In this document: positions 14,083 to 40,342 of the stretch, one piece after another
Position numbering within the stretch: position 1 is the stretch's first letter
Layout: the number at the start of each line of letters is the position of its first letter
Assembly (NCBI GenBank): GCA_902778855.1
Contig: CACYZM010000039.1
Coordinates: 1 to 43,309, forward strand
Length of the DNA: 43,309 bases
Source of the DNA: an uncultured Bacteroidia bacterium
GTDB taxonomy: Bacteria > Bacteroidota > Bacteroidia > Bacteroidales > UBA932
Direction: 5' to 3'
Made by a program: the position numbers and the translations under genes
Notes under the pieces: generated by a model
Seen by the model: the letters and a program-made list of their open reading frames with translations, nothing else
The model's database searches: none
What the model was told of the DNA's origin: nothing

Positions 14083-14083
14083 T

Positions 14084-15568
14084 ATGCATTCCATATCTCA
14101 CGAACACCTGACCCTGGAGCGGCTGCAGGAGATCCTCGACAACGGCGAGCATCTCGCCCTCTCGGAAGAGGCCGTCGCGGCCATCGAAAAGTGCCGCCAC
14201 TACCTCGACGCCAAAATGGAGGACATCGACCGGCCGGTCTATGGCATCACCACCGGCTTCGGCTCGCTCTATAATGTGACCATCCCGGCCGAAGACCTGT
14301 CGCAGCTGCAGCACAACCTCGTGATGTCGCACGCCTGCGGCACCGGCGAAGAAGTGCGCCCGGCCATCGTCAAGCTGATGCTCCTGCTCAAGGCGCAGTC
14401 GCTTTCCTACGGCCATTCCGGCGCCCAGCTGGTCACCGTCCAGCGGCTCATCGATATGTACAACAACGACATCCTGCCCGTTGTCTACCAGCAGGGCTCG
14501 CTCGGCGCCTCCGGCGACCTCGCTCCCCTGGCCCACCTCTGCCTTCCCATCATCGGGATGGGCGAGGTCCGTTTCAAAGGGAAGGTCCGCCCCACCGAAG
14601 AAGTCTGGAAGGAACTGGGCTGGGAGCCCATCCGGCTGCAGTCGAAGGAGGGCCTCGCCCTGCTCAACGGCACGCAGTTTATGAGCGCCCACGCCATCTG
14701 GTCGCTGATCCAGGCCAAGCGGCTCTCGAAATGGGCCGACCTGATCGGCGCGATGTCGCTCGAAGCCTACGACGGCCGCATCGAACCGTTCCTGCCGCTG
14801 AGCCACCGCATCCGGCCCCACAAGGGTCAGCTGGCCACCGCCGAGCGCTTCCTCCACGTGCTGGAAGGCAGCGAACTGATCCATCGTCCGAAGGAGCACG
14901 TCCAGGATCCCTATTCGTTCCGCTGCATCCCGCAGGTGCACGGCGCCGCGAAAGACAACCTGACCTATGTCCAGGGGGTCATCGAGAACGAGATCAACGG
15001 CGTCACCGACAATCCGAATGTCTTCCCCGATGAAGATATGGTGATTTCGGCCGGCAACTTCCACGGCGAGCCCATCGCCATTCCGATGGACACGATGGCC
15101 ATCGCCCTGTCGGAGCTGGCCAGCATTTCGGAGCGCCGCGTCTATCTGCTGATCCACGGCTATCGCGGTCTGCCGCGCTACCTGGCCCCGAATCCGGGCC
15201 TCAACAGCGGTTTCATGATTCCGCAGTACACGGCCGCTTCGATCGTGAGCCAGAACAAGGGGCTCTGCTGGCCCGCCTCCTGCGACTCCGTCCCCTCGTC
15301 GAACGGGCAGGAAGACCACGTGAGCATGGGCGCCAACTCGGCCACGAAGCTCGTGCGCGTGGTCGACAATGTGGAGACCGTACTGGCCATCGAGTTGTTC
15401 AACGCCGCCCAGGCGCTGGAATTCCGCCGTCCGGCCCACTCGTCGCCCCTGATCGAAAAGATTCACGCCGACTACCGCAAGGTCGTCCCCTTCATCGACG
15501 TAGACACCTATATGCACCCCCTGATCATCCGCTCCGCGGAGTTCATCCGGAAACATCAGTATATCTAA
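14084..15568 (+). CDS. hutH: Histidine ammonia-lyase
   Basis: HutH deaminates L-histidine to urocanate, the first step of the pathway. The MIO cofactor forms from A142-S143-G144 in GSLGASGDLAPLAHL, and the active-site tyrosine is in PVYGITTGFGSL (Y53). Other class blocks are YQQGSLGASG, NGTQFMSAHAIW, VQDPYSFRCIPQVHG and NGQEDHVSMG. At 494 residues it is normal length. It begins one base after the hutU stop. A palindromic element interrupts the operon just downstream. Confidence 0.95.
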   Translation: MHSISHEHLTLERLQEILDNGEHLALSEEAVAAIEKCRHYLDAKMEDIDRPVYGITTGFGSLYNVTIPAEDLSQLQHNLVMSHACGTGEEVRPAIVKLMLLLKAQSLSYGHSGAQLVTVQRLIDMYNNDILPVVYQQGSLGASGDLAPLAHLCLPIIGMGEVRFKGKVRPTEEVWKELGWEPIRLQSKEGLALLNGTQFMSAHAIWSLIQAKRLSKWADLIGAMSLEAYDGRIEPFLPLSHRIRPHKGQLATAERFLHVLEGSELIHRPKEHVQDPYSFRCIPQVHGAAKDNLTYVQGVIENEINGVTDNPNVFPDEDMVISAGNFHGEPIAIPMDTMAIALSELASISERRVYLLIHGYRGLPRYLAPNPGLNSGFMIPQYTAASIVSQNKGLCWPASCDSVPSSNGQEDHVSMGANSATKLVRVVDNVETVLAIELFNAAQALEFRRPAHSSPLIEKIHADYRKVVPFIDVDTYMHPLIIRSAEFIRKHQYI

Positions 15569-15576
15569 TATCTTAA

Positions 15577-15707
15577 AGCTATGTCCCAATCCATTTCCAG
15601 ACTACGGACCCCAAGGGGTCCTATCCCTCCCAAAGCGATCGCTTTGGGCCCCTCCCACTCACGGCTGCGTGGGCGCAGACGGTCTTGAAATGGATTGGGA
15701 CATAGCT
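15577..15707. repeat. 131 bp nested-palindrome element between hutH and hutI
   Basis: The outer arms 15577-15602 and 15682-15707 are 26-base inverted repeats with one mismatch (AGCTATGTCCCAATCCATTT begins the left arm). Inside are GGACCCC-AA-GGGGTCC (15606-15621), a perfect 20 bp palindrome (15629-15648) and CTGCG-TGGG-CGCAG with 4 loop bases (15665-15678). There is no ORF. It looks like a MITE- or REP-type insertion; target-site duplication is at most a couple of A's. Confidence 0.75.
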
Positions 15708-15718
15708 AAAGAACAAAA

Positions 15719-16939
15719 ATGAAAAGGCTGTTTAATAATATCGGTACGCTGGCCGGCATTGTGCCGGCGGGTATCGTCCGCAAGGAAGGGGCGGCGATGG
15801 ACGAGGTCGGGACGATCGACAAGGCCTGGCTGCTGGTCGAGGACGGCAGGGTTGCCGGGTTCGGCGGCGCGGGTTCGGCGGCGCCGGGCGGCGCCGACGA
15901 GGTCGTCGACTGCGAAGGCGGCCTGCTGATGCCGGCTTTCTGCGACAGCCACACCCATATCGTCTATGCCGGCTGCCGCGACGGCGAGTTCCTCGACAAA
16001 ATCCGGGGCCTCTCCTACGAGGAGATCGCGGCGCACGGCGGCGGCATCCTCAACTCCGCCGACCTGCTGCACCAGACTTCCGAAGACGAACTCTTCCGCC
16101 AGTCGATGGAGCGTGTCAACGAAATGATCGCCCAAGGAACCGGCGCCCTCGAAATCAAAAGCGGCTACGGCCTCAACCCGATCGACGAAATGAAGATGCT
16201 GCGCGTCATCGACCGCATCAAGGCGGCCTCCCCCACCCTGATCCGTACCACCTTCCTCGGCGCCCACGCCGTGGGCCGCGGCTACAGCCACGACGACTAT
16301 GTGGCCACCGTCTGCCGGATGATGCCGGAGGCGGCCCGCTACGCCGATTTCGTAGACATTTTCTGCGAAGAAGGCTTCTTCACGGTCGAGGACGCCGCCC
16401 GCGTCCTCGAAGCCGGCCTGCGGGCCGGCCTGCGGCCGAAGATCCACGCCAACCAGCTCGCCGTCAGCGGCGGCGTCCAGGTGGGCGTGCGCTACGGCGC
16501 CCTGTCGGTCGACCATCTGGAGAAATCGGGCGCCGCCGAGATCGAGGCCCTGCGGGGCGGGGCGACCATGCCGACGTTCCTGCCGGGATCGGCTTTCTTC
16601 CTCCGGATTCCCGACGGCCCGGCCCGCGATTACATCGCCGCCGGCCTGGGCGTCGCCCTGGCTTCCGACTACAATCCGGGCTCCTCGCCTTCCGGCGATA
16701 TGCGTTTCATCTGGGCCCTGGGCTGCATCCGGATGCGGCTCACGCCCAACCAGGCCTTCAACGCCGTGACCCTCAACAGCGCCTACGCGATGGGCGTGAG
16801 CGACCAGTGCGGTTCGATCACCGTCGGCAAACGCGCCGACCTGATCCTGACCCGCCCGGGCTGGAATCTCACGAAGATTCCCTACCTCCACCACTCGCCG
16901 TTCATCAGGCAAGTCTATCTCCAGGGAAAAACCGTATGA
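15719..16939 (+). CDS. hutI: Imidazolonepropionase
   Basis: HutI hydrolyses imidazolonepropionate to N-formiminoglutamate. It is an amidohydrolase-fold TIM barrel; metal ligands H78 and H80 are in CDSHTHIVYAG. Further family blocks are GTGALEIKSGYGLN, TTFLGAHAVG, FCEEGFFTVEDAARVLEAG, KIHANQLAVSGGVQ and ALASDYNPGSSPSGDM. At 406 residues it is full length. It starts 11 bases after the palindromic element, and its stop overlaps the next ATG. Confidence 0.95.
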   Translation: MKRLFNNIGTLAGIVPAGIVRKEGAAMDEVGTIDKAWLLVEDGRVAGFGGAGSAAPGGADEVVDCEGGLLMPAFCDSHTHIVYAGCRDGEFLDKIRGLSYEEIAAHGGGILNSADLLHQTSEDELFRQSMERVNEMIAQGTGALEIKSGYGLNPIDEMKMLRVIDRIKAASPTLIRTTFLGAHAVGRGYSHDDYVATVCRMMPEAARYADFVDIFCEEGFFTVEDAARVLEAGLRAGLRPKIHANQLAVSGGVQVGVRYGALSVDHLEKSGAAEIEALRGGATMPTFLPGSAFFLRIPDGPARDYIAAGLGVALASDYNPGSSPSGDMRFIWALGCIRMRLTPNQAFNAVTLNSAYAMGVSDQCGSITVGKRADLILTRPGWNLTKIPYLHHSPFIRQVYLQGKTV

Positions 16940-28169: not shown

Positions 28170-29303
28170 TTATTTCAGGGTTTGTACAGCGGTTTCAAGC
28201 CGGTCGATCGCCTCGGCGAGCATCGCCCGCGGGGCGCCGACGTTCATGCGCATATGCCCCTCTCCGCCGGGGCCGAAGGCCTCGCCGTCGTTGAGGGCCA
28301 GCTGCGCCCGGTTCACGAAAAGGTCGATCAGGCGGTCGTGGTCGAGCCCGAGGCCGCGGCAGTCGAGCCACACCAGGAACGAGGCCTGGGGCCGCACGGG
28401 CCGGATGCCCGGGATGCGCTCAGGCAGCCATTTGCAGACGAAGTCGACATTCTCTTTCACATAGGCGAGCATCTGCTGGCGCCAGGCGCCGCAATGCTTA
28501 TAGGCCGCTTCCGTGGCGACCGTCGAGAGGAACATCGTCCCGTTGAGTTCATTGGCCTGGAGGTAGCCAAAGAATTTCTTCCGGATGGCAGGATCGGGCA
28601 CCACGCAGAACGAACTGACGATGCCGGCCATGTTGAAGGTCTTGCTCGGCGCGGCGAAAGTGATGGAATTCGCGGCCGCGTCGGCCGAGACCGTGGGGAA
28701 CGGATGGTGCTTGTGGGCGCCGAGGGTCATGTCGGCGTGGATTTCGTCGGAGATCACCAGCACGCCGAAGCGCTTGCAGATGTCGGCCAGGCCGGCCAGG
28801 TCGGCCTCGGGCCAGACGATGCCGGCCGGGTTGTGCGGGTTCGAAAGAATCAGCACCTTCGGAGACTCGGCGAGGCAGACCGCTTCCAGGTTCTCGAGGT
28901 CCATGCGGTACGTTCCCTTTTTCTCGTCGAACACCAGGGGATTATAAACGATCTTCCGGCCGTTGGCCCGGGGCAGATTGAGGAAAGGCATATAGACGGG
29001 CGGCTGCACCACCACCTTGTCGCCCGGCTTCGTGAAGCATTCCAGGACGAAGGCGATGCCCCGGACGATGCCCGGTATGAAGGTGAGCTGCTCGCGCTCG
29101 ATGGACCAGCCGTGCAGCTGGAGCTCCCAGTCGCGGATGGCCCACCAGTAGCTGTCGGGGGCGATGGAATAGCCGTAGATCTGGTGTTCCAGGCGCTTTT
29201 CGATGGCCTGCCGGATCGGGGCGGGCGTCTCGAAATACATATCGGCAATCCACAGGGGCAGCAGGTCGTCCCGGCCGAAAACCGCCTGGAGATTGTCGGT
29301 CAT
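28170..29303 (-). CDS. MalY/PatB-type PLP aminotransferase (cystathionine beta-lyase family), 5' end shifted by a duplication
   Basis: This fold-type I PLP enzyme has SNPHNPAG, DEIHADMTLGAHKH, and the Schiff-base lysine K221 in FAAPSKTFNMAG. The MalY/PatB group cleaves cystathionine or cysteine, releasing pyruvate, ammonia and homocysteine or sulfide. The open frame starts MTDNLQAVFGRDDLLPLWIADMYF, but the family begins earlier. Upstream ATG 29371 encodes MLYDFDKIVDRRGSGAIMTDNL, which is then thrown out of frame by a 17 bp tandem duplication (29288-29321). Either the gene is broken, or the internal ATG gives a form lacking about 17 residues. ADMYFETP replaces the usual ADMDF. Confidence 0.85.
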   Translation of the reverse strand: MTDNLQAVFGRDDLLPLWIADMYFETPAPIRQAIEKRLEHQIYGYSIAPDSYWWAIRDWELQLHGWSIEREQLTFIPGIVRGIAFVLECFTKPGDKVVVQPPVYMPFLNLPRANGRKIVYNPLVFDEKKGTYRMDLENLEAVCLAESPKVLILSNPHNPAGIVWPEADLAGLADICKRFGVLVISDEIHADMTLGAHKHHPFPTVSADAAANSITFAAPSKTFNMAGIVSSFCVVPDPAIRKKFFGYLQANELNGTMFLSTVATEAAYKHCGAWRQQMLAYVKENVDFVCKWLPERIPGIRPVRPQASFLVWLDCRGLGLDHDRLIDLFVNRAQLALNDGEAFGPGGEGHMRMNVGAPRAMLAEAIDRLETAVQTLK

Positions 29304-29452: not shown

Positions 29453-30619
29453 ATGCAAACTTATATCAGCCACGTCGACATCTACGCCGCTTCCGGACTC
29501 CTCCGCGACGGCGCCCTCCTGCTGGACGGGACGCAGATTGCGGGTGTATTTCCCGAAGACCGGCCCGACCTGGCGGAAAAAGCGGATCAACGGATCGACG
29601 GCCGCGGCCTGACCGCCGTGCCGGGTTACATCGACATCCACGTCCACGGCGGCGGCGGCCACGACATCGACGACGGCACCGAGGAATCCATCGTCGGCTC
29701 CCGCGACTTCTACGGGAAGCACGGCGTGACAGCCTTCGCGCCCACCTATATGGCCCTTCCCCTCCCCGTCATCCGGAAAGGCCTCGACTCCGTGCGCGAA
29801 GTGCAGCGCCAGAACGCTCCGGGCCATCCCGAAGTGCTGAACGCCCATCTGGAAGGGCCGTTCATCAACTTGGCCTACAGCGGCTGCCAGCCCAAGTCAA
29901 ACATCCTGACCCTCAACGAAGAGAACGTCCGGATCTACGAAGAATACCGCGACGTCATCTGCCGCACGACCATCGCCCCGGAAGCCGGCGACAACTTGAA
30001 ATGGTTCCCCCGCATCGCCGCTCTCGGCATCCAGATCTCGATGGGCCACAGCCAGGCCACCATCTCCCAGGCCCGCGAAGGTATGGAGCAGGGCGCCACG
30101 AGTGTTACCCATCTCTACAACGCCATGTCGCAGACCCACAAGGAAGGCCCTTACCGCATCGGCGGTATGGTCGAAGCCGGCCTGACGCTCGACGGGCTCA
30201 AGGCCGAAGTCATCTGCGACGGCTATCACCTGCCCAACGAACTGCTGCGCATCGCGTGGAAGTGCAAGGGCCCCGACGGGCTGCTCATCGTCTCGGACGC
30301 CAGCCTCTGCGCCGGCATGACCTCGGGCAGCGTGGTCCGCACGCCCGATATGGTCTATGTCGTGGAGAACGGCATCGCGATGAACGAAGCCCGCACCTCG
30401 TTCGCCTCGTCCACCACCCCGCTCGACAAGATGGTCCGCCACCTGATCTTCGATACCGGCCTCCCGGTGGAAGACGTGGTCCGGATGGCCAGCGCCACGC
30501 CCGCCCGCCTGCTGGGCCTCGACGGCCGCCTCGGCACCATCGCCCCCGGCAAAGACGCCGACATCAACCTGGTCGACGCCGGATTCAACATTGTAAGAAC
30601 ATTCTGTAAAGGAAAATAA
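29453..30619 (+). CDS. nagA: N-acetylglucosamine-6-phosphate deacetylase
   Basis: NagA removes acetate from GlcNAc-6-P for amino-sugar use and cell-wall recycling. The 388-residue amidohydrolase has H63/H65 (DIHVHGGGG), metal ligand E134 (AHLEGPF), H199 (MGHSQAT), H220 (THLYNAM) and catalytic D282 (IVSDASLCAGM). Length is normal. Its stop overlaps the ATG of the first Hdr-like gene by one base (TAATG), so the deacetylase heads a six-gene transcript. Confidence 0.95.
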   Translation: MQTYISHVDIYAASGLLRDGALLLDGTQIAGVFPEDRPDLAEKADQRIDGRGLTAVPGYIDIHVHGGGGHDIDDGTEESIVGSRDFYGKHGVTAFAPTYMALPLPVIRKGLDSVREVQRQNAPGHPEVLNAHLEGPFINLAYSGCQPKSNILTLNEENVRIYEEYRDVICRTTIAPEAGDNLKWFPRIAALGIQISMGHSQATISQAREGMEQGATSVTHLYNAMSQTHKEGPYRIGGMVEAGLTLDGLKAEVICDGYHLPNELLRIAWKCKGPDGLLIVSDASLCAGMTSGSVVRTPDMVYVVENGIAMNEARTSFASSTTPLDKMVRHLIFDTGLPVEDVVRMASATPARLLGLDGRLGTIAPGKDADINLVDAGFNIVRTFCKGK

Positions 30620-31320
30620 TGGGAAAAATCTACGACCGTCTCGCGCAGGACTACCGCGTCAAGGAAGGCTTGAAAGCCTGCATCAGCTGCGGCACCTGCA
30701 CCGCCATCTGTCCGGCGGCCGAATTCTACCGCTACAACCCGAAAAAGATCGTCACCATCGTCCAGAGCCGCGACGACGAAGCCATCATCGAACTGCTCAA
30801 GAGCGAAACCATCTGGTACTGCGGCGAATGCCTCTCGTGCGTGACGCGCTGCCCGCGCAAGAACGCGCCCGGCCTGGTCGTCATGGCCCTGCGCTCCCTG
30901 TCGATCGAACTGGGCTATTTCGCCGAGAGCGAAAAGGGCCGGCAGCAGCTGCCGCTGATGCACGCCATGCAGCGCAATATCCTCAACTACGGCTACTGCG
31001 TCTATCCCAAGACCTTCGCCTACGACAAGCACCCGGAATACGGCACCGTGGGCAAATGGACCCAGGACCATATGGAAGACGTGTACGAGCGCCTGGGTGC
31101 GCACCTGGGCCAGGTCGGTCCGGGCGCCCTGCGCAAGATTCCGCAGGAATCGCTCGACGAACTGAAAGCCATCTTCGACATCACCGGCGCCACCCGCTGG
31201 ATGGAGATCGTCGAGGAGAAATCGCGCGAGAAGGCCGCCGAAATGGGCCTGACGATGGAAGAATACGAGGCGCAGGCCTTCAACCAGACCAGCACCTGCC
31301 ACCTCAACCCCCAAGACTGA
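30619..31320 (+). CDS. HdrC-like iron-sulfur protein
   Basis: The 233-residue protein carries two [4Fe-4S] motifs: C21, C24, C27, C31 (CISCGTCTAICPA) and C68, C71, C74, C78 (CGECLSCVTRCPR). This is the HdrC layout, normally an electron wire between HdrA and HdrB. The tail from 90 on is unique and helical, ending with an acidic stretch (MGLTMEEYEAQAF). It starts on the last base of nagA and lies 7 bases before the HdrB-like gene. Confidence 0.85.
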   Translation: MGKIYDRLAQDYRVKEGLKACISCGTCTAICPAAEFYRYNPKKIVTIVQSRDDEAIIELLKSETIWYCGECLSCVTRCPRKNAPGLVVMALRSLSIELGYFAESEKGRQQLPLMHAMQRNILNYGYCVYPKTFAYDKHPEYGTVGKWTQDHMEDVYERLGAHLGQVGPGALRKIPQESLDELKAIFDITGATRWMEIVEEKSREKAAEMGLTMEEYEAQAFNQTSTCHLNPQD

Positions 31321-31327
31321 CAAGCGT

Positions 31328-32398
31328 ATGATCTACCAAGGCAAGAAACGCATCTGGTCCGAATACCAGAAAGAGATACCCACCGACCACTGGTTCTACG
31401 TGCGGAGCTGCATCCGCCAGAGCTTCTTCCCGGCCTCCGAGAAGACCTTCCTCGAAATCCTCCGCAACCGGCTGGGAAAAGACGTCTATGAGACGCCGCA
31501 TCACACCACCTGCGGCGGCATCGCCTACCACAGCGAAGCCATCCCGCAGGAGACGATGATGACCATCATCGCCCGCCAGTTCGCCCTGATGACCGAGGCG
31601 GGCTACGAGAACTACGTGTGCAGCTGCATCACCAGCTTCGGCCTCTACAGCGAGGTCATCGAAGACTGGCGCGAGTTCCCGGAACTCCTGGCCAAAATCC
31701 GCGAGAACCTCTGGAAGGCCACGAAGCGGGAGTTCAAGGTGCCGACCTACCTGGCGCACGCCAGCGACCTGGTCTACAAATTCCGCAACGAGATCGCCGA
31801 GCAGGCGAAATACCGCCTGGTCAACCAGAAGACCGGCCGCCCGCTGCGCGTGGTGGAGCACATCGGCTGCCACTATGCGAAGATGTTCCCCTCCAAGGGC
31901 GTCGGCGGCGCCGAATACCCCTACGTCCTGGCCGGCATGGTCGAGTCGTGGGGCGGCGAGGTCATCGATTACCCGGAACGCCGCCACTGCTGTGGTTTCG
32001 GCTTCCGCCAGTACCTGGTCAAGGCCAACCGCGGCTACTCGATGTCGAACACGCACAAGAAGTTCGAGAGCATGGAGCCCTTCGAGCCCGATATGATCAT
32101 CACCAACTGCCCGGGCTGCCCCTACTTCCTCGACCGCTGGCAGTACGTCATCGCCGAGCAGACCGGCAAGACCTACGGCAAAGACGGCTACGGCATCCCC
32201 GTGTTCACCTACGAGGAGGTCGCCGGCCTCGTCCTGGGCTACAACCCGTGGGATCTCGGCCTGCAGACCCATCAGGTGGCCGTCGAGCCGCTGCTCGACA
32301 AGATGGGCATCCCCTACAATCCGGAAGACAAATACAAGGGACTTGACGGCAAGCAGCTCCAGCGGCCGGAATTCCCGATGAACATCAAATGCTGCTGA
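31328..32398 (+). CDS. HdrB-like CCG-domain protein
   Basis: HdrB binds noncubane [4Fe-4S] clusters through CCG motifs and carries the heterodisulfide site. The second motif is intact here: C181, C221-C222, C261, C264 (HIGCHYAK, RHCCGFGF, TNCPGCPYF). The first is degenerate: C28, a single C62 where CC is expected (TTCGGIAY), and C98/C100 as CSC rather than CxxC. So one noncubane cluster is likely, the other altered or lost. At 356 residues it is longer than methanogen HdrB (about 300), with a C-terminal extension ending KCC. Confidence 0.83.
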   Translation: MIYQGKKRIWSEYQKEIPTDHWFYVRSCIRQSFFPASEKTFLEILRNRLGKDVYETPHHTTCGGIAYHSEAIPQETMMTIIARQFALMTEAGYENYVCSCITSFGLYSEVIEDWREFPELLAKIRENLWKATKREFKVPTYLAHASDLVYKFRNEIAEQAKYRLVNQKTGRPLRVVEHIGCHYAKMFPSKGVGGAEYPYVLAGMVESWGGEVIDYPERRHCCGFGFRQYLVKANRGYSMSNTHKKFESMEPFEPDMIITNCPGCPYFLDRWQYVIAEQTGKTYGKDGYGIPVFTYEEVAGLVLGYNPWDLGLQTHQVAVEPLLDKMGIPYNPEDKYKGLDGKQLQRPEFPMNIKCC

Positions 32399-32399
32399 T

Positions 32400-33419
32400 A
32401 TGAGCCAGAACATTGTCGTCATCGGCGGAGGGCCCGCCGGCATCGAAGCCTCCCGCAGGCTCCGCGACCTGGGCTACACCCCCATCCTCATTGAAAAAGA
32501 ACCCTTCCTGGGCGGCCATCTCGCCCGCTGGGACCGCCTCTTCCCCGACGGCGTCGAGGCGCGGACCTTCCTCGAGCCGATGCTCGCGGACCTGGAAGGC
32601 ATCAAATATTTCACCGACACCGAAGTCTCGTCGATCAACCGGCTCAAGGACACCTGGGTGGTCAAGCTCTCCAACGGCCTCTCGGCCCAGGTGCGCGCCA
32701 TCCTGCTGACCACCGGCTTCGACCTGTTCAAGGCCGAGAAGAAAGAGGAATACGGCTACGGCATCTACGACCGCGTGATCACCAACGCCGACCTCGAGGC
32801 CTGGTTCAAGAGCGGCGCCGCACCGCAGTTCGACGACGTGAAGACCATCGGCTTCGTCCATTGTGTGGGATCGCGCGACGAGAAGGCCGGCAACCGCCAG
32901 TGCTCGAAGGTGTGCTGCGTGACCGCCGTCAAGCAGGCCTGCGAGATCAAGGAACGCTTCCCCGAAGCCAACGTCTACTGCTTCTATATGGACCTGCGCA
33001 TGTTCGGCCGCAAATACGAAGACCTCTATCTCAAGGCCCAGAAGGAACACGGCATCCGCTTCGTGCGCGGCCGCGTCTCCGAAGTGTCGGAAGACCTCGA
33101 CGGCCACCTGTTCGTCAAGGCGGAAGACACGCTCTTCGGCAAACCGATGAAGATCAAACTCGATATGCTGGTCCTGATGGCCGGCATGGCGCCCGCCGCC
33201 GGCACCCAGGCCCTGGCCCGGATGGTGAACATCCAGACCGGCGATGACGGATTCTTCCTCCCCAAGAGCCTGATCGTCAGCCCGTTCACCTCATCGCGCG
33301 AAGGCGTCTTCTTCGCCGGCGCCGCCACGGGTCCCAAGACCATCCCCGAAACGCTGAGCGAAGCCTCGGCCGCAGCCCTGTCCATCGACCGCTATCTCAA
33401 AACGCCGGTGAAATCATGA
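32400..33419 (+). CDS. HdrA/QmoA-like flavoprotein, short form
   Basis: FAD-binding protein with NIVVIGGGPAGIEASRRLRDLG at the start. The HdrA cluster motif is C155 (HCVGSRDEKAGNRQ), C168 and C172-C173 (CSKVCCVTAVKQA). At 339 residues it lacks the N-terminal extension, thioredoxin-reductase-like insert and C-terminal ferredoxin of full HdrA (about 650), and is closer to QmoA. The C-terminus has FFAGAATGPKTIPETLSEASAAA, the second FAD contact. It starts one base after the HdrB-like stop and overlaps the next gene by 4. Confidence 0.87.
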   Translation: MSQNIVVIGGGPAGIEASRRLRDLGYTPILIEKEPFLGGHLARWDRLFPDGVEARTFLEPMLADLEGIKYFTDTEVSSINRLKDTWVVKLSNGLSAQVRAILLTTGFDLFKAEKKEEYGYGIYDRVITNADLEAWFKSGAAPQFDDVKTIGFVHCVGSRDEKAGNRQCSKVCCVTAVKQACEIKERFPEANVYCFYMDLRMFGRKYEDLYLKAQKEHGIRFVRGRVSEVSEDLDGHLFVKAEDTLFGKPMKIKLDMLVLMAGMAPAAGTQALARMVNIQTGDDGFFLPKSLIVSPFTSSREGVFFAGAATGPKTIPETLSEASAAALSIDRYLKTPVKS

Positions 33420-33754
33420 TCGACTTCGGCTACGGACTGACCCCGAGCGCCACGCTCAAGATCGAAACTGTCGACAACCCGTCGTTCGAGAAATTGCACG
33501 AATTGGAGCCCGACGTTTCCAAATGCATCGCGTGCGGCTCCTGCACCGCCAGCTGTTCGGCCGGCGTGTTCACGGAGATGAGCCTGCGGCGTGTCATCCT
33601 CTCGCTCCAGCGCGGCCGCGAGAAGGAGACGCTGCCGATGCTCCGCCACTGCATGCTCTGCGGCAAATGCCTGCTCGTATGCCCCCGCGGCATCAATACC
33701 CGTCACCTGATCCTGAGCATCGGGAAGGTGTATAAACTGGAGGAAGGCCTATGA
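33416..33754 (+). CDS. Small HdrC-like dicluster ferredoxin
   Basis: A 112-residue protein with two [4Fe-4S] motifs: C37, C40, C43, C47 (CIACGSCTASCSAG, with Ser instead of the usual Pro) and C79, C82, C85, C89 (CMLCGKCLLVCPRG). It is the second HdrC-like protein of the operon and probably carries electrons from the HdrA-like flavin to the membrane protein. Both ends overlap their neighbours by 4 bases. Confidence 0.83.
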   Translation: MIDFGYGLTPSATLKIETVDNPSFEKLHELEPDVSKCIACGSCTASCSAGVFTEMSLRRVILSLQRGREKETLPMLRHCMLCGKCLLVCPRGINTRHLILSIGKVYKLEEGL

Positions 33755-35610
33755 TGCGGGAACGTATCCTGAACGCCTACGACCCGTTCGTCCTGCCGTT
33801 CGTCTTCGGCATGACCTTCGTGCTGCTGTACTGCCTGGTCAGCCTGATCAAGGTCCTCATCCAGCTGCCGGCCGCCGACCGGCGCAAGTTCGCCATCTCG
33901 CTCATCACGCCCACCACCATCTGGAAAAACATCCGCGACATTTTCTGCGACTGCCTCTTCCACGTGAAACTGTGGAAGCGCAACCGGGTGCTGGGCTATA
34001 TGCACTCGAGCATCGCCTTCGGCTGGTTCATGATCATCGTCATCGGCCACATCGAGACAATCCTCTACATTCCCGAGCGGCTGCACAAACTCTACTACCC
34101 GATTTTCTTCCGCTACTTCATGGAAGTCAAGAACGAGACGCTGCAGGGATCGTTCTTCTTCTTCCTGATGGACTTTTTCCTGCTGCTCATCCTGAGCGGC
34201 ATCACCATCGCCATCATCAAGCGTTTCCGCTCGCGGATCGTGGGCATGCGCCGCACGACCCGGCTGACGCTGCTCGACCATATCGGCCTCTACAGTCTCT
34301 GGGCCATCTTCCCGCTGCGCTGGATCGCCGAAGGCTTCACCGCCGGCATCGCGGGCGGCAGCTTCATGACGGTTCCCATCAACTGGCTGCTCCACAACTT
34401 CATGAGCAAGCCCGAGAACTTCACCGTGGCCTGGTGGCTCTACTCCATCGCCCTGGGCACCTTCATGACCGTACTCCCGTTCACCCGCTATATGCACATC
34501 CCGGCGGAGATCCTCCTCATCCCGATGCGCAACGCGGGGCTCCAGGTGCGGCATACCCGCAAGGGGTTCGCGCTGGGCATGCTCTACTCCTGCCCGAGCT
34601 GCGGCGTCTGCATCGACGCCTGCCCGATGGGCGTCCAGAAGAAGAATGTCAAGGACGCCACCGTCTATATGGTCCGCAATCTCAAGCGGAAGAACCAGCG
34701 ACGATCCCTCGAGATCGCCGAGAAATGCCTGATGTGCGGCAAATGCGCCGCCCTCTGCCAGGTCCAGATGGACGCCTGCGGCCTCCGTCTGGCCTACCGC
34801 AGCGTCCAGGAGCGCAAGCACAACCAGATTCCGGCCGATTTCGGCTATCTGGAGGCGGTGGAGCAGCCGGAGATTGAAACCGCAGCCGCGCCGGAGGTCG
34901 GCTCCGGTTCAGGCACCGGTATGAAAGAGGTGCTCTACTACGCCGGCTGCATGAGCTCGCTCACGCCGGTGATCAGTCGCTCCGTCCAGCAGGTGCTCAA
35001 ACACGCGGGCGTCAACTACGAACTGATGGACGCCGACGGCAGCATCTGCTGCGGCCGCCCGCTGATGCTGGCCGGCCGCAAGGAAGAGGCCGAAAAACTC
35101 ATCGCCAAGAACCGCCAGATCATCGAGCACAGCGGCGCGCCCATCCTGCTGGTGAGCTGCGCCATCTGCTACCGCATCTTCAAGGAGCACTACGGCCTGA
35201 TCGGCGTGGAAGTGATGCACTACACGGAATACTTCAACCAGCTGATGAAGGAAGGCCGGCTCAAGGTCCGCAACGGCCACCAGACGATCGTCTACCACGA
35301 CCCGTGCGAACTCGGCCGCGGCTGCGGCATCTACGACGCCCCGCGCGAAGCGCTTCGCGCCGCCGGCCAGCTCGTCCCCGCCCCGAAGGAACGCGTCGAG
35401 AGCATCTGCTGCGGCGGCTCCGTCGGCTCGCTGACCCTCCGCTACGAAGACCGCGAGCCCATCACCCGCGGCGCCCTGGAGAACCTCACGGCCAACAACC
35501 CCGAGCAGATCGTCACCGCCTGCCCCCTCTGCCTCAAGACCTTCGGCCGCTACTCCCCCGTCCCCGTCAAAGACTTCGCCGAAGTCCTCGCGGAGCAGCT
35601 GGAAGACTGA
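33751..35610 (+). CDS. Membrane cytochrome b / HdrD-like fusion (DsrMK/QmoC/HdrED type)
   Basis: A 619-residue fusion. Residues 1-260 hold about five membrane helices with histidines placed to bind haem b (H85, H100, H177, H215, H249), as in HdrE, DsrM and QmoC. Then come two [4Fe-4S] motifs (C281-C291, C326-C336), a Gly/Ser/Pro linker (about 372-390) and two complete CCG motifs (C400, C433-434, C470, C473; C519, C553-554, C591, C594) as in HdrD and DsrK. It should link menaquinone to the soluble Hdr-like proteins and has its own noncubane-cluster site. The electron partner is unknown. It is the last gene of the operon and converges on the C10 peptidase. Confidence 0.85.
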   Translation: MMRERILNAYDPFVLPFVFGMTFVLLYCLVSLIKVLIQLPAADRRKFAISLITPTTIWKNIRDIFCDCLFHVKLWKRNRVLGYMHSSIAFGWFMIIVIGHIETILYIPERLHKLYYPIFFRYFMEVKNETLQGSFFFFLMDFFLLLILSGITIAIIKRFRSRIVGMRRTTRLTLLDHIGLYSLWAIFPLRWIAEGFTAGIAGGSFMTVPINWLLHNFMSKPENFTVAWWLYSIALGTFMTVLPFTRYMHIPAEILLIPMRNAGLQVRHTRKGFALGMLYSCPSCGVCIDACPMGVQKKNVKDATVYMVRNLKRKNQRRSLEIAEKCLMCGKCAALCQVQMDACGLRLAYRSVQERKHNQIPADFGYLEAVEQPEIETAAAPEVGSGSGTGMKEVLYYAGCMSSLTPVISRSVQQVLKHAGVNYELMDADGSICCGRPLMLAGRKEEAEKLIAKNRQIIEHSGAPILLVSCAICYRIFKEHYGLIGVEVMHYTEYFNQLMKEGRLKVRNGHQTIVYHDPCELGRGCGIYDAPREALRAAGQLVPAPKERVESICCGGSVGSLTLRYEDREPITRGALENLTANNPEQIVTACPLCLKTFGRYSPVPVKDFAEVLAEQLED

Positions 35611-35622
35611 GCCCTGAGGCCG

Positions 35623-37461
35623 CTATTTGACAGTGATATAAGTCACAAGCCGTTCCACCACGGAGCCGCCGACTTTATCGGCGATGGCCGCTTCGATCTT
35701 GTACACGCCGGGCTTGGTGAACTGGTATTCCTTGTTTGATTGAGGATATTTCTTGGAAGTCAGGTTATCGGGATCCCGGATCGTCCAGACGGTGCCGAGA
35801 TAGCGTTTATTGTAATTCATCAACCGGAAAGTAAAATAATCGCCCACCCGATAGTCAGGTTCTGTGCAGATGAAAGGAACCGGCGTCAACGGCCACTCGT
35901 AAACCGAGGAGCCATAGTAGGTGCTGGCCAGAATCTTCCATTTTTCGGTATTCTTGCCTTCTTCGTAATAATACACGACCTTGTCTCCGAACCCGATTTC
36001 CGGAATCTGAACTACGATGGTCGCCCTCAGATAACTACTGGCCGGCAATGAAAAGTCCTGAACAGCGAGCTGAGACTCTTCCCCATTCTTTTTTCGGACC
36101 GCGAATTTCACACGACCCTCATAGTCGACACTGCCGTTATTCACAATGGAATAATACACTTTATACCCGCCGGAAGACTTTACCAGCCTGAGCCCGGGAT
36201 AATTATCACTCACATAAGTAGGAGCCAAATCCAGGACATACTCCGAATTCTTCTCCGGATAGAAGTCGAAAAATGCGGAACAGTCATAGGAATAATCCAT
36301 GCCGAAATTCAGGTTCGAAATATAATAGTAACCGTTGTTCGAGCCTCCCCAGCCAAGATTCACGTGAAAGACCGTCGTATTCTCATAAGAAGCATATCCG
36401 TCGAGCACGAATGTGTGGCCGTAGCCGCTGGTGGTGAAGCCGGAATAGAGAATGGGACGCTTGTCCAGTTCAGCCACAAGCATCTCTACCCACTGGCTGG
36501 GCCTATAGTCGGAAGCATGTTTCAGCGTGGCGGCCTTGTTGAAGCCAAAATGTTCGCTCATATGGCGGACGATCAATCCGATATTCACGCCAGTTCCTTC
36601 TGGCGTATACTGCGCTTCCACGATGGCACCGATATCGGCAAGCAACTGACCCAGATTCTGCCGAATGGCAGAACCTTCCGCCGTTTTTTTAATGGTTTCG
36701 ATATCCGTCAATTGCCGAAGGGTAGCCCAATCATAGACCGTTCCCAATTCATACTCGGCCGGCGCCACGGCACCGGAAGGCACGGAATAACCGCCCACTT
36801 TGCCCGAAGCACTGGCCGGCATGATCACCTGACCACTTTCATACGTAATCAATTCTCCAATGGCAACGGGGACGCATCCGGCATAGGTCAAATTGCCGTC
36901 TATCTCAGGACATTTGCAATTGAACACATACTCCTTAAACCCATATCCCATGTCGTTGTTACCCTGATCCCATTCCGGCGTCCGTCTGTCGACTTGGACG
37001 GTCACATCGCCCTTGATGTCGGCCGCCTTCGTACCGACAAACTTCGTCCACAGGTCTTTCACTTCCTGGGGCTGCGACTTGACGGAACGGACATAAGCCT
37101 TCATGGCGTCCATCCACCACTTGACGTTATCGGGCATATTCTCCGTTTCGAAGCGGCCGGTGGTTGAGATGCCAAGCACCGGGGGGACATTATCGTCGCC
37201 GGCGATAATCACCCAACCGCCACCGTCACGGGAGAACACGTAAAAGGCAGGCTGGACAGCGGCTTTCGTGGCTACACCATCGACAGACTCGCCATCCCAC
37301 AAAAGCTTGCAGGCAACGGGACCCGCTGCCCGGGCCGAATTCTGAGCAGCGAAGATCTTCTGCGCAATATCACGCGCCTTTGAGGAGGAGACCGGAGCCG
37401 CCTGCAACGGGAAACTGCTGAACAGCACGGCGAGCACAAAGATAATGAGTCCTTTTTTCAT
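35623..37461 (-). CDS. C10 family (streptopain/SpeB-like) cysteine peptidase
   Basis: A 612-residue secreted protease with a signal peptide (KKGLIIFVLAVLFSSFPLQA). A Spi-like propeptide (AFYVFSRDGGGWVIIAGDDNVPPVLG is its core) is followed by the catalytic domain: C196 in LTYAGCVPVAIGELITY and H349 in SGYGHTFVLDGY, then FHVNLGWGGSNNGYY. Beyond about 400 are two Ig-like domains (YVLDLAPTY onward), the last with PGVYKIEAAI. Such enzymes digest host or dietary proteins outside the cell. It lies 3 bases after the fimbrillin-like gene, a pairing common in Bacteroidales. Confidence 0.93.
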   Translation of the reverse strand: MKKGLIIFVLAVLFSSFPLQAAPVSSSKARDIAQKIFAAQNSARAAGPVACKLLWDGESVDGVATKAAVQPAFYVFSRDGGGWVIIAGDDNVPPVLGISTTGRFETENMPDNVKWWMDAMKAYVRSVKSQPQEVKDLWTKFVGTKAADIKGDVTVQVDRRTPEWDQGNNDMGYGFKEYVFNCKCPEIDGNLTYAGCVPVAIGELITYESGQVIMPASASGKVGGYSVPSGAVAPAEYELGTVYDWATLRQLTDIETIKKTAEGSAIRQNLGQLLADIGAIVEAQYTPEGTGVNIGLIVRHMSEHFGFNKAATLKHASDYRPSQWVEMLVAELDKRPILYSGFTTSGYGHTFVLDGYASYENTTVFHVNLGWGGSNNGYYYISNLNFGMDYSYDCSAFFDFYPEKNSEYVLDLAPTYVSDNYPGLRLVKSSGGYKVYYSIVNNGSVDYEGRVKFAVRKKNGEESQLAVQDFSLPASSYLRATIVVQIPEIGFGDKVVYYYEEGKNTEKWKILASTYYGSSVYEWPLTPVPFICTEPDYRVGDYFTFRLMNYNKRYLGTVWTIRDPDNLTSKKYPQSNKEYQFTKPGVYKIEAAIADKVGGSVVERLVTYITVK

Positions 37462-37464
37462 GTT

Positions 37465-38721
37465 TTAGTCCTCCTCCGCCATTTTGATGACATAGCCCTG
37501 ATCCGCTCTCGCGTCGTAAAGCCAGGCGTGGTATGCCGTCAGTTTGATGATTTTCATCGATGCGCTGCTCTTCGAGACGATCGGCCCCGTTTCGCCCAAT
37601 GCGGTCACCGTGACCTTCGGCGTGGCATTCATCGTCATGGCAATCGGCAGAATGTTCAACGCGACGGAATACCCTTTATTCCAGTCCTGAAAACGAGCGA
37701 GACGTTCGTCATACCTGTCGTAGGTCATATAGGCATACTGACTTTCGCCTTGCGTATACAGGCAACAATTGACGGCAGCTTTCGTCGTAACGCCGCCGTA
37801 TGCAGCGAAATCGTCGGATTCCAAGAGGAAGTCGGCATTATACTGAGGCGTATAAGTAAAGGCCGGCATTCTGCGGATCTTGGAGCGGTTGATGACATTG
37901 GCTCCGCCGCCTTTCGCGCTCTTGATCATAGCCATACCCTCGCTATCGACAAATTCCACAAAAAAGCCATCTCCCAGAACGCCCGCAGGCGTGGAAATAT
38001 AGAAAGTGACGCCGTCGCCTTGATTGAGTTCCACGCCGCCGCCGGCACGGCAATCAAGCGTCAGTTTCCGGGAATTCTCGTTCCGGACATCCCCTCCTTG
38101 CACGATGGTTCCGGTGGAAGAATCGATTTGCATCGAACCGTTGAGGAATTCTTTTCCGTTGCCGGCCATCGTATAGAGATTCACCTCGACAATGGTAGCC
38201 GTTCCCTTCAAGCAGAAGGCAATCACGCCGCCGACATTGTGAAAACGAAGGTCTTTCTGCGTCATGGCCGTGCCCCAGGAAATGTTGGCTCCCCGGCCAA
38301 AACTATCCTCGGCATATGTCTGCGACTGCGGGAAGAAGCCGGACAACGTGCCGTCCGTTTCATTAAAAGAATCCGCCACAAAAGCGGGATAGACCGCATA
38401 ATAAGGTCCCGGGCCGAGGTCCGACCCCACAAAGGTTCCGCTCACATTCCCACCATCGCCGCGTTTCAGCATGAAGTTTTTTCCCGCCGGGTATTGCGCA
38501 CTGAAAATCTTAATCGTATCGCCTTCACTCCACACGACGTCCAGGCCGTCCATGGCGGTCTTAGTTCCATCTCCTTCCTCGAGCGTAGCATGAAACTCCA
38601 TCGTCTTGGGGGCGACAGTTTCCTCTTTTCCGACTTCGGTTTGTTCGACCGGGTCGACGCAGGCTTGAAGCACAAGCCCCAACAGGAAGGCCAAAGATCC
38701 GAAAAGATAAAACTTTTTCAT
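37465..38721 (-). CDS. Fimbrillin-family lipoprotein
   Basis: The 418-residue lipoprotein has lipobox VLQAC (C21). The N-terminal block TKTAMDGLDVVWSEGDTIKIFSA and the later GPYYAVYPA and LRFHNVGGVIAFCLKG blocks are the hallmarks of Bacteroidetes fimbrillin (FimA/Mfa-like) proteins. These are surface-exported, processed and polymerised into pili, or act as tip or anchor subunits. It sits directly upstream of the peptidase. Whether it polymerises is unknown. Confidence 0.8.
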   Translation of the reverse strand: MKKFYLFGSLAFLLGLVLQACVDPVEQTEVGKEETVAPKTMEFHATLEEGDGTKTAMDGLDVVWSEGDTIKIFSAQYPAGKNFMLKRGDGGNVSGTFVGSDLGPGPYYAVYPAFVADSFNETDGTLSGFFPQSQTYAEDSFGRGANISWGTAMTQKDLRFHNVGGVIAFCLKGTATIVEVNLYTMAGNGKEFLNGSMQIDSSTGTIVQGGDVRNENSRKLTLDCRAGGGVELNQGDGVTFYISTPAGVLGDGFFVEFVDSEGMAMIKSAKGGGANVINRSKIRRMPAFTYTPQYNADFLLESDDFAAYGGVTTKAAVNCCLYTQGESQYAYMTYDRYDERLARFQDWNKGYSVALNILPIAMTMNATPKVTVTALGETGPIVSKSSASMKIIKLTAYHAWLYDARADQGYVIKMAEED

Positions 38722-39055: not shown

Positions 39056-40342
39056 ATGAAAGAGTTTGAACCGACCGAATACGTGCTGGAGACTGTGGCG
39101 ACGGGGCGTCGTTTTGCGGACGGCGGCTGGGCGCTGGGGGATCCGGAGTGCAAGGAGCCGTCGCTGATCCGGGCGATTTATGAGAAGAAACAGATTGAAT
39201 TCGGACCCGAGAAATGGGGCATCTACCAGTTTGCGGACTGGATGCCGATCCGGCGGATGCTGAAGGGATCGGCGGCGACCGTCACCTACAAGAGCGAGAA
39301 GCTCGGGGCGAAGCTGGGTCTGCCGAATCTGTATATCGCTTTTTCGGGCTGGTGGCCCGAGAAGGGAGCGGGGATGTCGACCTGCTCGTTCAAGGAGACG
39401 GAAGCGTACAGCGTCTGCGCGCGCATCCCCGACGGGGAGAAGCGGGTGCTGGTGGTCGCTTCGGCCGGCAACACGGCGCGGGCGTTCGCCAAGGTCTGTT
39501 CCGAGAACAACATTCCGCTGCTGCTCAGCGTGCCGGAAGAAAACATCAGCGCGCTCTGGTTCGAGAAGCCGCTGAATGACTGCGTGAAACTGATCTGCTC
39601 GCCGAAGGGCACCGACTATTTCGACGCCATTGCCCTGGGCGACGTGGCCTGCACCTCGCCAATGTTCTTCGCCGAGGGCGGCGCGAAGAATGTCGCCCGC
39701 CGCGACGGCATGGCGACGACCGTCCTGTCGGCCGCGAAGGCCCTGGGCCGCATCCCTGACGCCTATTTCCAGGCCATCGGGTCCGGTACCGGCACCATCG
39801 CCGCGTGGGAGGCCAATCTCCGCCTGATCGAAGACGGCCGCTTCGGCAGCCACAAGATGAAACTCTTCCCGTCGCAGAACGTTCCGTTCCTGCCGATGCA
39901 CGATGCCTGGAAGGCCGGCAGCCGGCCGCTCCTGCCGATGGACGACGAAAAGGCCCGCGTCCAGGCGCTGGAGATTGACGCCAAGGTACTCTCCAACCGG
40001 CGGCCGCCGTACAGCCTGCGCGGCGGCGTCTACGATGCCCTCCGCGACGCCGGCGGCGATATAGAATGCGCCACCAACGCCGACATTGCCGCGATGAAGC
40101 AGCTCTTCCTCGACACGGAAGGCATCGACATCCACGAAGCCGCGGCCGTCGCCCTCCAAGGCATGATCAACGCCTTCGAGGCCGGCAAACTGCCCCGCGA
40201 AGCCACGGCCATGCTCAACATCACCGGCGGCGGCCAAGCCCGCTTCCAGCGCGAGCACAAGTGCCACTACCTCCAACCCAGCCTCATCGGCAACGCCACC
40301 GACCCCGGCATCCTCAAAAAAATCGAAAAACTTTTCCAATGA
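39056..40342 (+). CDS. Cysteate synthase
   Basis: A threonine-synthase-like PLP enzyme that makes L-cysteate from phosphoserine and sulfite. The 428-residue protein has the PLP lysine K113 in TCSFKETEAYSVCAR, VVASAGNTARAFAKVC and a phosphate-binding region (AIGSGTGTIAAWEA). In methanogens cysteate feeds coenzyme M; in Bacteroidota such as Alistipes it feeds capnine-type sulfonolipids, the likelier role here. I start at ATG 39056 because the promoter lies at 39022-39029 and an upstream ATG (38981) would precede it. The stop overlaps the GH89 ATG by 4 bases. Confidence 0.85.
   Translation: MKEFEPTEYVLETVATGRRFADGGWALGDPECKEPSLIRAIYEKKQIEFGPEKWGIYQFADWMPIRRMLKGSAATVTYKSEKLGAKLGLPNLYIAFSGWWPEKGAGMSTCSFKETEAYSVCARIPDGEKRVLVVASAGNTARAFAKVCSENNIPLLLSVPEENISALWFEKPLNDCVKLICSPKGTDYFDAIALGDVACTSPMFFAEGGAKNVARRDGMATTVLSAAKALGRIPDAYFQAIGSGTGTIAAWEANLRLIEDGRFGSHKMKLFPSQNVPFLPMHDAWKAGSRPLLPMDDEKARVQALEIDAKVLSNRRPPYSLRGGVYDALRDAGGDIECATNADIAAMKQLFLDTEGIDIHEAAAVALQGMINAFEAGKLPREATAMLNITGGGQARFQREHKCHYLQPSLIGNATDPGILKKIEKLFQ

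Follow-up and report, generated by a model that had tools for sequence, protein, structure and literature searches.

Among the heterodisulfide reductase (Hdr)-like complexes described so far, QmoABC combines HdrA-like and HdrC-like proteins with membrane cytochrome parts and, to our knowledge, contains no CCG domain. Sulfonolipids are unusual membrane lipids of gut bacteria, and their precursor cysteate needs sulfite, which cysteate synthase joins to O-phosphoserine; one maker of this sulfite is CysH, the assimilatory reductase of 3'-phosphoadenosine 5'-phosphosulfate or adenosine 5'-phosphosulfate, which derives it from sulfate. In the sHdr system, for instance that of Hyphomicrobium denitrificans, the genes run hdrC1B1A-hyp-hdrC2B2 and are accompanied by LbpA, and sulfite is the proposed product (PMC6067878). 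EtfD carries one haem b, with His78 and His241 as ligands and menaquinone adjoining, and its His583 blocks the CCG cluster and makes it non-catalytic (PMC13083937). The pathway from L-phosphoserine to sulfobacin B has also been described (PMC11211663), and Alistipes and Odoribacter stand out among the sulfonolipid makers of the gut (PMC9304779). Here we consider a 43,309-nucleotide stretch of DNA from an uncultured member of the Bacteroidales (contig CACYZM010000039.1, hereafter the window), in which four genes for Hdr subunits and one for a cytochrome b/HdrD fusion form a single operon.

The product of this operon is probably a menaquinone-linked, anaerobic sulfane/sulfide-to-sulfite oxidase, a membrane-bound variant of sHdr that feeds cysteate and sulfonolipid synthesis. 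The argument starts from what can be observed, namely gene content, conservation, lineage, linkage and a pattern of displacement, in and around the following genes:

30619..31320, + strand: hdrC1, HdrC-like protein with two 4Fe-4S clusters and eight conserved cysteines (Pfam and NCBIfam matches)
31328..32398, + strand: hdrB, of the HdrB1 type (Pfam and NCBIfam matches, ligand alignment, AlphaFold2 model)
32400..33419, + strand: hdrA, short HdrA of 339 residues binding flavin adenine dinucleotide (FAD), of the sHdrA type (match to PDB 6tjr, tree)
33416..33754, + strand: hdrC2, small two-cluster HdrC-like ferredoxin (Pfam and NCBIfam matches)
33751..35610, + strand: cytochrome b/HdrD fusion (Pfam and NCBIfam matches, AlphaFold2 model)

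The five open reading frames (ORFs) share one strand and are spaced by -4 to +7 bases, and their Pfam and NCBIfam matches are consistent with these assignments. The tight coupling of HdrC-, HdrB-, HdrA-, HdrC- and cytochrome-b/HdrD-like genes, which the original prediction had read from the window alone, is thereby confirmed: the operon is real and conserved across the order Bacteroidales. All five genes stand in the window order at 101 of 116 mapped loci, a set that includes near relatives and contigs ending inside the operon. Two further loci (L157 and L159) hold the complete set rearranged, and 13 are incomplete, of which seven start inside the operon at a contig end (L043, L047, L068, L073, L084, L086 and L100), two are partial operons (L142 and L158) and four are other Hdr types (L152-L155). 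The cofactor ligands, assessed on 104-111 sequences per subunit, are nearly invariant. Cysteines 21, 24, 27, 31, 68, 71, 74 and 78 of HdrC1 are kept in 103-104 of 104 sequences, the cluster ligands of HdrB in at least 104 of 106, Cys155, 168, 172 and 173 of HdrA (a CX12CX3CC motif) in 110 of 110, the cluster ligands of HdrC2 in at least 109 of 110 and those of the membrane protein in all 111. The window itself is contig C39 of a 2.4 Mb genome in 79 contigs that is 98% complete.

The soluble subunits tie the operon to the sHdr lineage. Residues 4-328 of the window HdrA are matched by the Hyphomicrobium sHdrA structure (PDB 6tjr), and the protein corresponds to two internal stretches of the 654-residue 5odc_A. 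In a tree of 58 rows, rooted on methanogen and other full-length HdrA, holding no QmoA row and with bootstraps not fully settled, the Bacteroidales proteins and a Picosynechococcus plasmid protein form one clade (97/99), which falls on the side of 6tjr and of two LbpA-linked HdrA from other Bacteroidota (L152 and L153) and is divided from the full-length HdrA, those of methanogens included (92/85). HdrB, which shares 59-98% identity with 28 relatives, has a complete C-terminal CCG site and keeps three of the five cysteines of the N-terminal one; its AlphaFold2 model (mean pLDDT 84.9) is best matched in the PDB by 5odc_B. In methanogen HdrB numbering, position 41 is Thr, Ser or His and position 81 is Ser in seven of seven Bacteroidales rows, both positions are Ser in the HdrB1 of Picosynechococcus sp. 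PCC 7003, L152 and L153, and both are Cys in two of two methanogen rows; the loss of C41 and C81 as a mark of sHdrB1 is drawn solely from these aligned rows. Given the placement of HdrA in the tree and the same lost N-terminal ligands as in the sHdrB1 rows, the five-gene complex is, on sequence grounds, of the sHdr type, with HdrB2 replaced by the membrane protein. A canonical HdrABC was rejected, the window HdrA having 339 residues against about 650 and the N-terminal HdrB site being incomplete.

The window operon and the sHdr genes have in common the C1-B1-A core order, a short HdrA, a C2 protein, a CCG subunit in the place of B2 and an HdrB1 with the same two N-terminal ligands lost (compared with L152 and L153, in whose HdrB1 one C-terminal ligand present in the window protein is missing as well). 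The window order is likewise C1-B-A-C2 followed by a CCG protein, but there is no hyp gene, the B2 role is fused to a cytochrome b in the last gene, and the linkage is to an anabolic pathway. The Hdr genes of L153 have as neighbours DsrE, a pair of ETF subunits, a CCG protein and a GCV_H protein that is read as LbpA, with the same clusters recurring in L152; an LbpA-linked setting of this kind has been described for sHdr (PMC6067878). No LbpA was recognised in the window genome, whose sole GCV_H protein scores as a GcvH equivalog (149.6 bits, cut-off 115.85; 34.8 against 150 for the GcvH-related model).

The nearest relative found outside the Bacteroidota, where a plasmid collection alone was searched, is L129, a C1-B1-A-C2-B2-SQR cluster on a plasmid of Picosynechococcus sp. 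PCC 7003. Its HdrB and HdrA are 40% and 45% identical to those of the window, and in the tree the latter is placed among the Bacteroidales proteins. In place of the cytochrome b/HdrD fusion it has a separate B2 and a protein that matches sulfide:quinone reductase (SQR) structures at 2e-98; in 31 kb, no GcvH/LbpA and no sulfonolipid genes are annotated. As an observation in its own right, the cluster with SQR (L129:14242-19982, NZ_CP016476.1) raises the possibility of sulfide oxidation in this cyanobacterium.

The membrane protein consists of five long helices, presumably membrane-spanning, followed by two 4Fe-4S motifs and two complete CCG sites. Its AlphaFold2 model has a mean pLDDT of 91.5, and the nearest solved fold is Mycobacterium smegmatis EtfD (9ojn, TM 0.71 by query). 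In common with EtfD/HdrDE it has the five long helices, two 4Fe-4S clusters and two CCG domains, and with EtfD it has a pair of conserved histidines, His85 and His249, separated by 164 residues against 163 between the haem b ligands of EtfD; these two are probably haem b ligands as well, and His71 is also conserved. The protein differs from EtfD/HdrDE in having all-Cys CCG sites, in belonging to a larger HdrC1BAC2 set and in standing beside no recognised ETF gene. The window genome likely makes menaquinone, because it holds two PF02621 (futalosine-pathway) matches, despite the absence of MenA.

The original prediction had described a non-methanogenic, Hdr-like membrane complex other than Qmo, possibly linked to menaquinone, with two separate CCG-type active sites. 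Its account of the complex holds: curated models for methanogen Hdr, QmoC, LdhH, GlcF, GlpC and DsrK all score the window proteins far below their cut-offs (47.5 bits against 300 for QmoC, with a genome best of 47), no AprAB was recognised in the window, and the menaquinone link is judged probable. The two-site claim stands for the membrane protein, where both CCG sites are complete, and only in part for HdrB, where just the C-terminal site is. A dehydrogenase CCG subunit of the LdhH, GlcF or GlpC kind was rejected for the membrane protein at 90.9 bits against 800, 49.7 against 333 and 61.5 against 278 (NF008369), respectively; placement in a Qmo or lactate/glycerol dehydrogenase clade, named beforehand as what would speak against the prediction, was not seen, the HdrA tree containing no QmoA row and the dehydrogenase families being compared by profile only. 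The HdrA tree that it had proposed as a check put the window protein beside sHdrA.

The second suggested check, a survey of neighbours across the Bacteroidales, yielded a specific partner pathway, that of sulfonolipids. The commonest gene beside the operon other than Hdr itself encodes cysteate synthase, a pyridoxal-phosphate (PLP) enzyme (cluster c0) present at 37 of the 116 loci. In 30 of these 37 cases the synthase comes immediately next on the operon's own strand, -29 to 78 bases beyond the last match of the operon; in L033, L034, L036 and L042, for example, it follows after 18-67 bases. A CFAT/SulA-like protein, a short-chain dehydrogenase that by position is ketocapnine reductase-like, and a glyoxalase-fold (VOC) protein each recur at 13-14 of the 116 loci. 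In L102, from a metagenome assembly titled Alistipes sp., Hdr is accompanied by cysteate synthase, CFAT, the short-chain dehydrogenase and VOC genes. The window carries the synthase too, 3.4 kb downstream on the same strand, with two genes of the opposite strand in between:

39056..40342, + strand: cysteate synthase (TIGR03844, 439.5 bits against 324.9; PDB 9k3c, E 1.5e-180), its start set where 9k3c aligns

The expectation of no electron donor beside the operon is upheld insofar as no hydrogenase, formate dehydrogenase, Flx or sulfate-reduction gene was found among the 30 window ORFs scanned (two of which read a single stretch in different ways), a search that covered the window and not the whole genome; it missed the sulfur partner, cysteate synthase, downstream. 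A constant donor (hydrogenase, formate, Flx or ETF) was also rejected, none being recognised in the 30 most frequent neighbour clusters of the 116 loci, which were judged by eye and by family scans, rarer neighbours not all being annotated. The further claim of an unknown disulfide without a partner is not supported, given the place of HdrA beside sHdrA and cysteate synthase as the commonest neighbour. The conserved neighbours in L137, L140 and L165 were judged by eye to be housekeeping genes (BirA-, FtsH-, CdsA- and PyrE-like), and the genes around CFAT in L222 (YfiO, Rpb6, DFP, DUF4835, a RecN-like and a Pyr_redox protein) were likewise set aside.

In CFAT-cysteate synthase clusters, the Hdr genes occupy the place that a sulfite-producing step holds in other clusters. 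Two classes of synthase have to be distinguished here: the strong TIGR03844 class to which the window protein belongs (CS1) and a weaker class (CS2; E about 5e-42 to 8e-24), some genes of which may be other PLP enzymes. CS2 was accepted as cysteate synthase because it lies beside CFAT and the short-chain dehydrogenase in L157, L159 and several of L181-L189. At least nine of the 43 CS2-class genomes that have CysH carry it no more than about 6 kb from cysteate synthase, and it lies near CS2 in all eight loci that were chosen by coordinates for this. The order CFAT-CysH-CS2 is found in L181, L182, L183 and L185, with one extra gene in the last, and larger CysH/CS2/CFAT sets with VOC genes are found in L186-L189. 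L184, by comparison, reads CFAT-CS2-HdrC1-B-A-C2-cytochrome b on one strand and has no CysH match in the stretch or the genome. CFAT, CS2 and Hdr also stand together in L151, L157 and L159, and CFAT is directly 3' of the Hdr operon in L230. CysH and the Hdr complex would then share an operon slot and a proposed role as sulfite source for cysteate synthase; as proteins they are unrelated, CysH reducing activated sulfate where Hdr is proposed to oxidise reduced sulfur.

This displacement can be followed across 295 Bacteroidales genomes, in sets compiled by hand from match tables and compared by Fisher tests, which ignore shared ancestry. Cysteate synthase was counted in 82 genomes by the strong class and in 55 by the weaker one, CysH in 184, and Hdr in 91, Hdr presence being defined by a short HdrA at E of at most 9.1e-70 and not by all five genes. 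The 137 genomes with cysteate synthase comprise 23 with both Hdr and CysH, 25 with Hdr only, 79 with CysH only and 10 with neither, a negative association with an odds ratio (OR) of 0.12 (p 3.6e-7). When each of the 62 families is represented by a single genome, over 2000 draws, the median OR is still 0.12, with a median p of 8e-4 and a 95th percentile of p of 0.015, a control that covers the cysteate-synthase set and not CFAT; 15 families of that set include genomes with Hdr and no CysH. Within single families, the two are exchanged in five (f18, f46, f48, f72 and f115).

The test with CFAT (called at E of at most 1e-100; 209 of 295 genomes) is the stronger. Hdr or CysH is present in 193 of the 209 genomes with CFAT and in 23 of the 86 without (OR 33, p 1e-29). 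Among the 111 genomes lacking CysH, Hdr is present in 30 of 46 with CFAT and in two of 65 without (OR 59, p 3e-13), and 85 of all 91 Hdr genomes have CFAT. These proteins are read as CFAT and not as serine palmitoyltransferase because of the Lys281 rule for SulA (PMC9304779): the equivalent residue is Lys in 46 of 46 aligned CFAT copies and Ala in 11 of 11 Spt-type controls. These 46 include all 20 that were examined out of the 40 Hdr genomes with CFAT but without a recognised cysteate synthase. The window genome has a CFAT with Lys at this column (G000:C15:18531-19760) and no CysH match. A genome of 1.5 Mb from the same family (G126) has no Hdr, cysteate synthase, CysH or CFAT match at the cut-offs used, a pattern consistent with joint loss of the pathway.

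From these patterns we infer a scheme for the reaction and the direction in which it runs, for the source of the sulfur, for the path of the electrons and for the reduction of quinone; the oxidation of sulfane sulfur to sulfite, in particular, is suggested by the partner genes and by the displacement of CysH. Reduced sulfur, as sulfide or persulfide, would be bound at the soluble HdrB/HdrA/C1 part and oxidised there to sulfite, the donor perhaps being supplied through the neighbouring PatB C-S lyase or a cysteine desulfurase. Electrons would pass from HdrA (FAD and Fe-S) through HdrC1/C2 to the two non-cubane HdrD clusters, then to haem b and finally to menaquinone. Cysteate synthase would combine the sulfite with O-phosphoserine, and CFAT/SulA followed by 3-ketocapnine reductase would turn cysteate into sulfonolipid, so that the complex would replace CysH as the sulfite source in genomes without CysH. 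The potentials are about -116 mV for HSO3-/HS-, about -74 mV for menaquinone and about +33 mV for fumarate, by which sulfite formation would be feasible with menaquinone and not with NAD+; this would explain both the membrane anchor and the absence of LbpA. The broader proposition, that an LbpA-free, menaquinone-linked sHdr performs assimilatory oxidation of reduced sulfur to sulfite in strict anaerobes and thereby provides gut sulfonolipids with their sulfonate, the electrons probably ending in fumarate respiration, is one towards which we lean, with rather less assurance than for the complex itself.

Several observations weigh against a sulfite source dedicated to sulfonolipids, beyond the shared ancestry to which the Fisher tests are blind. 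Plain co-occurrence of Hdr and cysteate synthase over the 295 genomes gives an OR of 1.4 (p 0.17) and, with strong TIGR03844 matches only, a weak 1.8 (p 0.035); the signal appears once CysH is considered or CFAT is used, and Hdr and CysH show no association over all 295 genomes (p 0.60). Hdr and cysteate synthase lie 8 kb or less apart in only seven of the 48 genomes that have both. CysH was not seen beside CS1, the closest pair among the matches listed being about 12 kb apart (G116). Hdr and CysH are both absent from 16 CFAT genomes, some of them fragmentary and others not (e.g. G003 and G201). One genome has both and another neither in families f4, f20, f58 and f116, and families f66, f76 and f96 include genomes without CysH in which Hdr has not taken its place. 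As regards the customary sHdr partners, no LbpA was recognised among the frequent neighbour clusters of the 116 loci, nor any DsrE/TusA partner beside the operon, for which no genome-wide search was made. Finally, of the 43 Hdr genomes in which no cysteate synthase was recognised, 36 also have CysH. In genomes without the synthase Hdr and CysH are positively associated (OR 7.7), so that Hdr is not simply a CysH substitute there; either such genomes draw on both sulfite sources and use a different cysteate synthase, or Hdr serves an additional purpose in them.

These 36 genomes, along with the SQR beside the cyanobacterial relative, are what one would expect of a general, energy-linked complex for sulfane/sulfide oxidation, a respiratory sHdr variant on whose sulfite sulfonolipid synthesis merely draws in some lineages. 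We regard this as improbable: CFAT is present in 85 of the 91 Hdr genomes and Hdr in only two of the 65 genomes devoid of both CysH and CFAT, a linkage that is hard to explain were lipid synthesis incidental. Somewhat more doubtful is a role at another sulfonolipid step, such as oxidising a thiol directly to a sulfonate or altering the redox state of the lipid, with no free sulfite. Seven genomes have Hdr and neither a recognised cysteate synthase nor CysH, and six of these seven have CFAT, as this alternative would predict; yet the commonest partner is cysteate synthase, which needs sulfite, and it is CysH, a sulfite maker, that takes the same operon slot. It is very unlikely that the complex reduces an unknown disulfide with electrons from menaquinol or a flavin, working in the reductive direction like methanogen HdrDE. 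Although none of the ten CCG cysteines of the HdrD domain is lost, and Ile occupies the position of the His583 that makes the EtfD cluster non-catalytic (PMC13083937), the N-terminal HdrB site lacks two ligands of the canonical heterodisulfide site and such a reductase would not stand in for CysH as a source of sulfite.

With a sulfite-forming, membrane-bound sHdr variant as the preferred reading, its distribution is of interest. The short HdrA is present in 91 of the 295 Bacteroidales genomes (E at most 9.1e-70). A scan of public species genomes found 159 relatives of the membrane protein, of which the best 80 were used: by title all 80 belong to the Bacteroidales/Bacteroidia, among them one Alistipes sp. 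and two Lentimicrobiaceae, and many of these titles name rumen, omasum or caecum. Across the phylum, among 395 genomes (six from the order, the window's included), the only matches besides the window's own were distant HdrB proteins of 26-31% identity, which outside the order belong either to LbpA-linked sHdr (L152 and L153) or to an HdrB-like protein beside SdhAB-like genes (L154 and L155). In one family of the phylum, an HdrB-like gene has in-frame TGA codons in 10 of 14 matched genomes (L116, L117, L119-L121 and L123-L127) and adjoins SdhAB-like genes in the two loci viewed; the TGA codons could reflect an overrun of the match, sequence error or recoding. In a marine survey, 334 of 406 sHdr were placed in the Proteobacteria (PMC12345210).

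The sHdr family and its proposed product (PMC6067878) and the sulfonolipid enzymes (PMC9304779, PMC11211663) are known, and the role proposed here for an sHdr-type complex is new: no paper containing both "sulfonolipid" and "heterodisulfide reductase", or joining sHdr and sulfonolipids, was found in the open-licence literature. The word "sulfite" does not occur in the main text of PMC9304779 or PMC11211663, and neither treats the supply of sulfite in anaerobes without CysH. The complex appears to make sulfite without oxygen or sulfate in anaerobic gut and rumen Bacteroidales. If this is true, an enzyme family known so far from energy-yielding sulfur oxidation would have a biosynthetic use and a new membrane-bound form, an operon found in many Bacteroidales of the gut and rumen would gain a function, and the route could be tested in cultured gut bacteria.

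Several neighbouring genes merit mention. Divergent from the operon lies the lyase named above:

28170..29303, - strand: PatB-family C-S lyase (TIGR04350, 414.1 bits against a cut-off of 340)

As a source of sulfide or persulfide for the Hdr complex it is speculative; cluster c2, a loose set of related PLP enzymes that are not all PatB, occurs at 13 of the 116 loci. A SulP-like transporter (cluster c37, named by eye) follows cysteate synthase in L096, L098, L099 and L133 and may be a sulfite or sulfate carrier. The VOC protein of about 355 residues recurs in both Hdr-type and CysH-type sulfonolipid clusters (L157:14169-15239, L151:13402-14466, L183:12252 and L187:13150). L186-L189 are apparent sulfate-to-sulfonolipid clusters, L189 adding CysD-, CysN-, sulfate-symporter- and CysQ-like genes. 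Elsewhere in the window, the opposite strand at 35623-38721, between the operon and cysteate synthase, encodes a C10-family peptidase with a Spi-type inhibitor domain and an unassigned protein of 418 residues, positions 11408-16939 hold histidine degradation genes (cyclodeaminase, urocanase, a histidine ammonia-lyase family member and an amidohydrolase), and positions 5611-6987 encode a DcuAB-type dicarboxylate transporter.

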